Shown one piece after another: positions 13,070 through 39,034 of a DNA stretch of 41,507 nucleotides (position 1 is its first letter; the number at the start of each line of letters is the position of its first letter). The translations under genes were made by a program, and so were the position numbers. Below the pieces are notes generated by a model. That model was not told the DNA's origin, did not search any database, and was given only the letters and a program-made list of their open reading frames with translations. The DNA is from Syntrophothermus sp. DTU052 (GTDB lineage: Bacteria > Bacillota > Syntrophomonadia > Syntrophomonadales > DTU052): contig LFRU01000090.1 of NCBI GenBank assembly GCA_001512495.1, forward strand, positions 17,999 through 59,505, given 5' to 3'.

Positions 13070-14032
13070 GTGAAAAAGGCGTGGGGCATTGTAATCTTGA
13101 TACTGGTTTTAGGCATTGCTTTTCCCGTTTTCCAGCACCTGCTGAAAAAACAGGAGGCGTTCACCCCCAATAGCCTTATTCGCATTCACATTGTAGCCCA
13201 CAGTGACAGTTCGCTCGACCAGGACATCAAGCTGAGGGTTAGAGATCGTCTGGTTAACTGGCTGTCTCCGCAGTTGGCCGCCTGCAATTCGGCGCAGGAG
13301 AGCCGCATGGTCCTGGCCCAAAACCTCAATGTCATTCAGGAGGAGGCCCGGCGGGAGATTAAGGCCCGGCAGGGAACTTACGGGGCCTCGGTAATGCTGG
13401 GCGAATTCGATTTTCCTGTTCGGAGTTACGGGGAGATCACCCTGCCTGCAGGAAAATACCAGGCCCTGAAAGTGGTGTTGGGAGATGGCAACGGGACCAA
13501 CTGGTGGTGCGTTTTGTACCCGCCGCTCTGTGTGGGGAAGACCACTGAAGCCGAGAAGGATGTACGCTGGTTCGTTTCCAGGTTTGTTTCAAATCTCAAG
13601 AAAAAACCTGAAGCCCATGAAGAAATGAAGCCGCCGCCCCCGCAAAAACCGGGGGCTTTTTTTCGCCACCATTTTCTATCACATGTCCCACAACAGCCAC
13701 ATATTAATAGAAAAGGATACATGGTCTTGCGGGACAACCGCATGACTTGTCAGGGGGGAGGGAAACAAGTGCTCAAAATATCAGATCTGAGAACCCGAGA
13801 GGTGGTTAACGTTCAGGACGGCAGAAAGCTTGGACTCATCAAGGATCTTGATCTTGATGTGGAAAAGGGAAAAATAAATGCATTGGTTCTGCCAGGACCA
13901 AACAGGTTAATAAACTTTTTTACCCGCAGAGATGATATTGTTGTTCCCTGGGAACGGATAGTAAAGATCGGCCGGGATGTGATACTGGTGGAGGTAAACC
14001 CCTATAACGAAATTCATCACCTGAACGAGTAA
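13070..14032 (+). CDS. spoIIR: SpoIIR, forespore signal for SpoIIGA activation; frame reads on into YlmC
   Basis: SpoIIR is secreted from the forespore and triggers SpoIIGA to process pro-sigma-E. Residues 1-190 match the family: a signal/anchor helix (4-22), the SLIRIHIVAHSDSSLDQDIKLRVRD region, YGEITLPAGKYQALKVVLGDG and NWWCVLYPPLC. A normal SpoIIR would end after DVRWFVSRFVSNLKKK (about residue 183). Instead no stop occurs: translation would pass through a terminator hairpin (residues about 189-198) and continue in frame into the PRC-barrel protein YlmC, giving 320 aa. Deleting one A from the A6 run at 13601-13606 would give a stop at 13626-13628, right before the hairpin. The fusion is therefore either a sequence error, a recoding site or a real recent stop loss. 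The start is GTG after TAGGAGGGG. Confidence 0.85.
   Translation: MKKAWGIVILILVLGIAFPVFQHLLKKQEAFTPNSLIRIHIVAHSDSSLDQDIKLRVRDRLVNWLSPQLAACNSAQESRMVLAQNLNVIQEEARREIKARQGTYGASVMLGEFDFPVRSYGEITLPAGKYQALKVVLGDGNGTNWWCVLYPPLCVGKTTEAEKDVRWFVSRFVSNLKKKPEAHEEMKPPPPQKPGAFFRHHFLSHVPQQPHINRKGYMVLRDNRMTCQGGGKQVLKISDLRTREVVNVQDGRKLGLIKDLDLDVEKGKINALVLPGPNRLINFFTRRDDIVVPWERIVKIGRDVILVEVNPYNEIHHLNE
13636..13663 (+). terminator. Strong terminator inside the spoIIR-ylmC frame
   Basis: GCCCCCG (13636-13642) pairs perfectly with CGGGGGC (13650-13656) around a CAAAAAC loop and is followed by seven T residues. This is the strongest simple terminator in the window, and it sits inside an uninterrupted reading frame, about 105 bases before the ribosome-binding site of ylmC. 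Confidence 0.9.
13769..14032 (+). CDS. ylmC: YlmC/YmxH family PRC-barrel sporulation protein
   Basis: Starting at the GTG at 13769, six bases after GGGGGGAGGG, the product is an 87-aa PRC-barrel protein (LKISDLRTREVVNVQDGRKLGLIKDLDLD ... DDIVVPWERIVKIGRDVILVEV). The family is typical of spore formers and its gene stands after sigG in B. subtilis as here; the exact role is unknown. Its own ribosome-binding site and start show that it can be made separately, although the same frame is open all the way from spoIIR. Normal family length (80-90 aa) supports separate translation. Confidence 0.85.
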   Translation: MLKISDLRTREVVNVQDGRKLGLIKDLDLDVEKGKINALVLPGPNRLINFFTRRDDIVVPWERIVKIGRDVILVEVNPYNEIHHLNE

Positions 14033-27433: not shown

Positions 27434-27699
27434 TCAGATAGAACTGATGATATCCAAAAGGCTGTGAAGGGGACAAGTAACTTCCCGGGTGGAACCAGCG
27501 AGTCTGGGACGGTGAGAGCCGGGCCGAAGCCAGGATGGTGAAGATCACCCCGGAGCTTTTAACCGAACTCGGGCTGAATAGCCTGATAGTAGGCTTAAAC
27601 GGCTTTTCCCCGTTATAGGAAATAGAGGGAACTGTGGTTAAATAGGGTGGTACCGCGGAAGAACACCTTTCGTCCCTAAATGGGGATGAAAGGTTTTTT
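27434..27699 (+). promoter_or_regulatory. T-box riboswitch (tRNA-Ile) before ileS
   Basis: The leader has the T-box sequence AGGGTGGTACCGCGG at 27644-27658, whose TGGT bulge region pairs with uncharged tRNA ends, and a terminator at 27666-27699 (11-bp stem CCTTTCGTCCC with GGGGATGAAAGG, then six T). Stem I shows the GATGA kink-turn region near 27446, GGTGAGAGCC in the apical part, and the specifier region GGTGAAGATCACC, putting the codon ATC (Ile) at 27544-27546. This agrees with the downstream gene. Uncharged tRNA-Ile would favour the antiterminator and ileS expression. Confidence 0.95.
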
Positions 27700-35288: not shown

Positions 35289-35459
35289 ATGAAGCGCAAA
35301 AGTGCCGGCCTGAATACAGCCGGGCTAGGCGCTTTAGTTACTGCCATCGGAGCCACCTTTTTTAAGCGCAGTAACCTGGGGCGCGGTATCATCGGCTTTG
35401 GTCTGGCGCACATCGTGCTGGGACTGCTGGATCGTCTTCGAACCGGCATCCGAAGGTAG
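35289..35459 (+). CDS. Small basic glycine-rich protein, 56 aa
   Basis: A short gene with a ribosome-binding site (GGGGGGTGA) seven bases before its ATG and a strong terminator ten bases after its stop. The product starts KRKSAGLNTAGLGALVTAIG and continues to a basic C-terminus (LLDRLRTGIRR); Gly and small residues at regular spacing and two hydrophobic stretches (about 11-25 and 33-48) suggest a membrane-associated or packed-helix protein. A CATGCTA string at 35261-35267 resembles a sigma-G -10 element but has no matching -35. I do not recognise a family. Confidence 0.7.
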   Translation: MKRKSAGLNTAGLGALVTAIGATFFKRSNLGRGIIGFGLAHIVLGLLDRLRTGIRR

Positions 35460-35468
35460 CTCCCTCCT

Positions 35469-35493
35469 GCACCGGGGAATCCCGGTGCTTTTT
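35469..35493 (+). terminator. Strong terminator after the 56-aa gene
   Basis: GCACCGGG and CCCGGTGC form a perfect 8-bp stem with a GAAT loop, followed by TTTTT. The remaining bases to the next start (about 120) show no clear gene. Confidence 0.92.
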
Positions 35494-35612
35494 GCTGGTC
35501 CGCATAATTCCGGGGAAAGGCCCTGGGGGGATAGTCTTTTTTCGAACTGGAGGGATGGGAGTAAATAAGGCGGGTACAAATAAAAATCCTGTTACAAGGA
35601 GGGTGGGAAACA

Positions 35613-36335
35613 GTGGTAATTAATGAGTTCATAAGGGTGGTGCGGCCGTCTTGGGGCAGCCTGGTTTATCTCCTGAGGACGGAGGAGGGTATGGTGGCAG
35701 TCGATACCGGAGCGGAAACCGGGGCGGCGTCGACGGTGACTGCGTACGTTCGCCACCGGTTTCAGGAGGAACTAAGATACATATTCCTGACTCACTGGCA
35801 TGGCGACCATACTGGAGCCGCCGAAAAGATCCGGGAACTAACGGGGGCGGAAATAATATGTCACCGGGATGAATCCCGGCTCCTGGCAGGAACGGGTGAG
35901 ATTGAATACTGCTGGAACCGGCCCATGCCCCGAACCGGTTTAACCCCATTTCTCCGGATGGTATCTGCCGCCGGATATGGTTTGATGAAAGCCAACACTG
36001 CTCCCCTGCAGGCGGATATTCTGGTTAAGGACGGAGATATGCCTTTTGGCCCCGAATGGACGGTTATCCATCTCCCCGGGCACACCCCCGGGAGCTGTGG
36101 CCTGTGGTCGGAGCGCCATCGGATATTGTTCGCAGGAGATACCGTTTTATGTGTGGGGAGAAGAACGATTCACCCTCCAGTTTCTTTTCTTATCCAGGAT
36201 CGCAGCAAATTTTACCAATCATGGTGCAGGTTAAACCGGTTAGGGGAAATTAACTGGATACTTCCGGGCCATTTCCGTCCCCTCCGCTGGAACGGGCCCC
36301 TTGACATATTACCTGCGGTGCAGAAATACGCATAA
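35613..36335 (+). CDS. Metallo-beta-lactamase-fold hydrolase
   Basis: A 240-aa MBL-fold enzyme with all ligands: FLTHWHGDHTGAAEKI (HxHxDH), the next His in LPGHTPGSCGLW, the bridging Asp in LFAGDTVL, and the last His in LPGHFRP. VAVDTGAE marks the first strand. This is the glyoxalase-II/RNase-Z-like general group; the substrate cannot be told. Unlike the paralogue at 32.4 kb, its metal site is intact. GTG start after AAGGAGGGTGGG. Confidence 0.88.
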   Translation: MVINEFIRVVRPSWGSLVYLLRTEEGMVAVDTGAETGAASTVTAYVRHRFQEELRYIFLTHWHGDHTGAAEKIRELTGAEIICHRDESRLLAGTGEIEYCWNRPMPRTGLTPFLRMVSAAGYGLMKANTAPLQADILVKDGDMPFGPEWTVIHLPGHTPGSCGLWSERHRILFAGDTVLCVGRRTIHPPVSFLIQDRSKFYQSWCRLNRLGEINWILPGHFRPLRWNGPLDILPAVQKYA

Positions 36336-38861: not shown

Positions 38862-38870
38862 GGTTGAGTT

Positions 38871-38962
38871 CCCTTTAAAACAGTCCCGAGAGGCTGGCAA
38901 GGGAGCGGGGAATACCAAAGGATTTTACACCTTACCAGCCAAATGGGCGGTAAGGTTTTTTT
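38871..38962 (+). promoter_or_regulatory. PyrR attenuator between pyrR and pyrB
   Basis: The PyrR loop AGTCCCGAGAGGCT (38882-38895) lies in an anti-antiterminator hairpin (CCCTT 38871-38875 with AAGGG 38899-38903; CAG with CTG inside). GGCTGG (38892-38897) can pair with CCAGCC (38935-38940) as antiterminator. The terminator CCTTACC-a-GCC with GGC-GGTAAGG (38930-38940 with 38946-38955) is followed by seven T. The mutually exclusive pairs are textbook PyrR control, and this site looks stronger than the one before pyrR. Confidence 0.93.
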
Positions 38963-39034
38963 GTGGGTATCAGTCGGGGATGGTTTGAAACGGTCCTTCC
39001 TGGCACACAGTAATTGAAACAGGGGGTTGATTAA

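Follow-up and report, generated by a model that had tools for sequence, protein, structure and literature searches.

The copy of spoIIR that lies beside sigG in Syntrophothermus sp. DTU052 raises the question of whether a sporulation gene has lost its stop codon, its frame running through a terminator into the next gene, and of whether the resulting arrangement would be a biological feature. The window, that is, the whole stretch of 41,507 nucleotides analyzed here, corresponds to positions 17999-59505 of contig C46 in a draft genome (G000) of 2.28 Mb that is 99.5% complete and distributed over 113 contigs. On either side it adjoins an N gap in the scaffold (C46 17915-17998 and 59506-59507, flanking window positions 1 and 41507), and the gene at its left edge looks split solely due to such a gap. 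Rfam returned only a T-box leader (27455-27680) and a PyrR binding site (38868-38963) over the whole window. SpoIIR is the forespore signal that triggers the processing of pro-sigmaE by SpoIIGA. Judging from the translations and general knowledge, we take the neighboring genes to be spoIIGA, sigE, and sigG upstream and ylmC and nrdR downstream. As the first-pass annotation had reported, an uninterrupted frame of 320 codons runs in the assembly on the forward strand from a GTG at 13070 to the ylmC stop at 14030-14032. Three features describe it:

13070-14032, forward strand: open frame of 320 amino acids as read from the assembly (frame translation)
13070-13627, forward strand: spoIIR (the copy beside sigG) with a GTG start, the coding part with counterparts in relatives (TIGR02837, PF09551, alignment with G001-G004)
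13769-14032, forward strand: ylmC (YlmC/YmxH, PRC barrel) with its own ribosome-binding site GGGGGGAGGG and a GTG start (TIGR02888; start common to the relatives)

Residues 7-160 of the 320-amino acid frame match the SpoIIR profile TIGR02837 with 160 bits, above the curated cut-off of 151.9 bits and over nearly the full length of the profile (positions 5-163 of 168), which places the frame in the SpoIIR family; PF09551 also matches this part. Residues 236-309 match TIGR02888 with 91.6 bits (curated cut-off 44.2 bits), and this match together with its own start identifies ylmC as a YlmC/YmxH gene. SpoIIR proteins usually stop soon after the domain, a trait that is not strictly defining, and here the frame stays open to 14032.

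We compared the locus with three genomes of the same genus (G001, G002, and G003), one of the same family (G004), and the 63 genomes of the class, 56 of which contained a match. Aligning the spoIIR-ylmC junction with relatives, a check that the first-pass annotation had named, showed the same gene, the terminator, and an in-frame stop between them in all four nearest relatives. Counted from the preceding stop, the spoIIR frames of the three same-genus relatives are 184-190 codons long and that of G004 has 215 codons, and SpoIIR frames in the 62 other genomes of the class do not exceed 251 amino acids, as against 324 here. A protein scan of GTDB contigs found no loci beyond the genomes already compared. 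By these comparisons, the fused frame is private to G000.

The joint between the two genes contains two further features:

13636-13663, forward strand: intrinsic terminator of 7 G-C pairs, a 7-nucleotide loop, and 7 T, lying within the open frame (relatives retain it with compensatory changes)
13657-13733, forward strand: ylmC leader, conserved as DNA, probably a promoter region (0/76 differences to G003, 3/77 to G002)

The GC hairpin of seven base pairs followed by seven T, described previously as lying within the frame, is indeed found there (GCCCCCG-CAAAAAC-CGGGGGC, 13636-13656, with arms at 13636-13642 and 13650-13656; T at 13657-13663). The stem in G003 reads GTCCCCG/CGGGGAC in place of GCCCCCG/CGGGGGC, both arms being altered together with pairing kept. 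Scanning the contig for terminators with strict criteria returned this site alone, hence no base rate can be attached to it. Within the open frame, 13631-13663 would encode the proline-rich peptide KPPPPQKPGAFF, at which ribosomes might slow shortly before the end of the RNA.

Differences to G003 amount to 67 of 480 positions (14%) in spoIIR itself (13070-13549), and likewise to G002, whereas the leader at 13657-13733 is identical to that of G003 even at third codon positions, which argues for constraint on the DNA and not on a peptide. This constraint is probably that of a ylmC promoter and leader. The stretch is almost invariant in the genus (CACATATTAATAGAAAAGGATACATGG) and resembles a promoter region; a search of 13657-13733 for a sigma-70-type site found none, and its spacing does not match the sigmaE consensus. 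The ribosome-binding site and start codon of ylmC are at the same place in G001-G003. In those three genomes, the frame leading out of spoIIR meets stops in the intervening stretch, as do the remaining two frames in the window. With a first-order model of the same stretch, which is lenient because it was trained on that stretch, the probability of encountering no stop over the 47 intervening codons is 0.32, and being in frame with ylmC by chance contributes a further factor of about 1/3. Once the stop is lost, an open path into ylmC by chance is therefore likely enough to be unremarkable.

Where the stop was lost can be read from the codon alignment, which distinguishes two sites:

13601-13606, forward strand: run of six A named by the first-pass annotation; its frame agrees with the relatives and it is not the site of change (codon alignment)
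13620-13625, forward strand: site of the lost stop, GAA GAA ATG AAG in the window against GAG TAA TGA AGC in G002 (codon alignment)

The tails that follow the conserved core are LKKKPEAHEEMKPPP in the window, LKKKAEAHE with two stops in G002, LKKKS with one stop in G003, and LRKKPTQE with two stops in G001. The window reads KKKPEAHE, sharing the proline of KKP with G001 and EAHE with G002, where third positions alone differ (GAA GCC CAT GAA against GAA GCG CAT GAG). Directly after this, the window has CAT GAA GAA ATG AAG C and G002 has CAT GAG TAA TGA AGC, so that one base has been added; a substitution relative to G002 removes the first stop and, with the added base, both tandem stops are gone. 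The TGA at 13626-13628 is the homolog of the second stop of G002. The alignment thus places the change at about 13620-13625, just past the frame of the A run. The motif ATGAAG now occurs twice (13617-13622 and 13625-13630), a pattern that would be compatible with misalignment in replication or in assembly.

The claim that the sequence stands about one base away from the usual gene-terminator-gene layout is borne out, since the relatives show such a layout. Removing one A from the run of six, as had been proposed, does reach the TGA at 13626-13628, but so does the loss of any base from the run up to 13625, and the window taken by itself thus does not point to the run. The run itself does not hold up as the place of repair: relatives share its frame and stop directly after it, and the proposed ending LKPMKK (NLKPMKK) has no homolog in any relative. 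The run is also not conserved (GAAAAAG, GAAGAAAG, and GGAAGAAG in relatives), which speaks against slippage on it. On the codon alignment with the relatives, we reject both slippage and an indel at the A run.

With some confidence, we favor the reading that the spoIIR stop was lost recently, in this genome only, by real mutation. Of the genes on the 66.7-kb contig, about 55 had counterparts in G001-G003 for comparison, and spoIIR alone has a grossly different C-terminal end; no further frame break was seen, except in the gene cut by the N gap. The agreeing ends of these other genes speak against a generally poor, indel-rich assembly. In addition, no long homopolymer occupies 13620-13625, and a substitution is required besides the insertion relative to G002, both of which count for a real change. 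The stops of the four nearest relatives lie at differing tail positions, even within the genus, indicating that the tail end drifts naturally. Against G002 and G003, the body of SpoIIR has a dN/dS of 0.18-0.22 and ylmC one of 0.04-0.08, and we conclude from these low values that both are still constrained genes; given the constraint on the spoIIR body, the change at the stop, if real, would be recent or harmless.

That a single base was misassembled or misread, near 13620-13625 or within the 25 bases before, is a less probable but sizeable possibility, in which the true end would be the TGA at 13626-13628, before the terminator. A single base restores the layout of the relatives, the TGA that would then be read is homologous to the second stop of G002, and the short ATGAAG repeat could mislead an assembler. 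The evidence comes from a single draft genome, which is split into 113 contigs and has N gaps at other places on the scaffold, and this weighs against a real loss; moreover, were the substitution to come first (TAA to a sense codon, leaving TGA in frame), only one base would be left, which an error could supply. An error has to contend with the intact frames of the approximately 55 comparable genes on the same contig, with the lack of a long homopolymer at the site supported by the relatives, and with the substitution that is required in addition. The standings given to real stop loss and to error are judgements and not computed probabilities.

If the stop loss is real, the course of events may be outlined as follows. 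In the ancestor, a stop or tandem stop a few codons past KKK would have closed the tail, as it does in the relatives. The one-base insertion and the substitution at about 13620-13625, a difference seen by comparison, would then have removed the stop as true mutations, leaving a frame that happens to continue across the unchanged terminator and the ylmC leader as far as ylmC. Termination at the U run near 13663, which lies within the frame, would turn most spoIIR transcripts into a nonstop mRNA of about 198 codons, and ribosomes at its end would have their product tagged via tmRNA or freed by another rescue factor; a tmRNA is present in G000, with the tag ANDNYALAA. Rare read-through transcripts may yield some 320-amino acid fusion, and translation of ylmC would begin at its own start codon. 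The copy beside sigG would then probably yield less SpoIIR. The cell would tolerate such reduced output, as its genome carries another, intact spoIIR at a different locus.

This second spoIIR, of 195 amino acids and with a normal stop, is located beside ispE on contig C72 (about 35293-35880) and has a dN/dS of 0.11-0.15 to G003 and G002, a sign of constraint. It is divergent from the copy beside sigG. Two copies are also present in G002, G003, G004, G008, G012, and G016, and a single copy is seen in most of the order's remaining genomes.

A functional nonstop arrangement, in which SpoIIR would rely on tmRNA and ribosome rescue owing to the terminator in its frame, in the manner of brfA of Bacillus subtilis, is highly improbable. 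The anatomy would fit, with a terminator inside the frame and no earlier stop, tmRNA is encoded in the genome, and brfA provides a known case (PMC6881298). The arrangement is, however, absent from all relatives, SpoIIR is not a rescue factor, and the extra codons carry no sign of selection. Just as doubtful is the corresponding regulatory scheme, in which tmRNA tagging would control how much SpoIIR is made from terminator-truncated nonstop mRNA and the second spoIIR would supply a basal signal. A selected SpoIIR-PRC fusion, or two SpoIIR forms through slippage on the A run, is the least credible of all: the frame is open from end to end, but it is private to G000, the terminator and the ylmC leader are conserved as DNA, the ylmC start is conserved, and the shifted reading of a nonconserved A run has no homolog. 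We reject the functional fusion that had been put forward on account of its absence from the 62 other genomes, the DNA-type conservation of the joint, and the conserved ylmC start.

Either one of the two spoIIR copies has thus undergone an ordinary stop-codon loss, or the assembly is wrong by one base at this locus. Although the first-pass annotation described the letters correctly, on present evidence the fused or slipping gene that was claimed is no biological feature, and a new kind of protein or a regulated arrangement is not supported. The frame is a hazard for annotation, as an automatic gene caller would report a SpoIIR-PRC protein of 320 amino acids and may miss ylmC. If true, the stop loss would be a clear natural example in which the terminator of a sporulation gene sits in the gene's own frame and is tolerated through a second spoIIR.

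Compared with its family, this SpoIIR shares the domain match but has no stop before the terminator in this assembly, and a second copy is found beside ispE. The ylmC gene resembles other members of YlmC/YmxH (TIGR02888) in its domain, its own start, and its ribosome-binding site, and it is joined to the upstream frame on paper only. There is also a likeness to brfA of B. subtilis, whose reading frame contains a rho-independent terminator ahead of the stop codon (PMC6881298) and whose product is SsrA-tagged and degraded (PMC6881298; reviewed in PMC8012679). As in arfA- and brfA-type genes, an intrinsic terminator lies within the frame of spoIIR if the assembly is right; an arrangement kept by selection is not what the comparison indicates, with stops before the terminator in 4/4 nearest relatives. 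Whereas brfA and arfA of Escherichia coli, both read from nonstop mRNA, encode ribosome rescue factors in a regulatory arrangement, the arrangement of spoIIR is absent from all close relatives.
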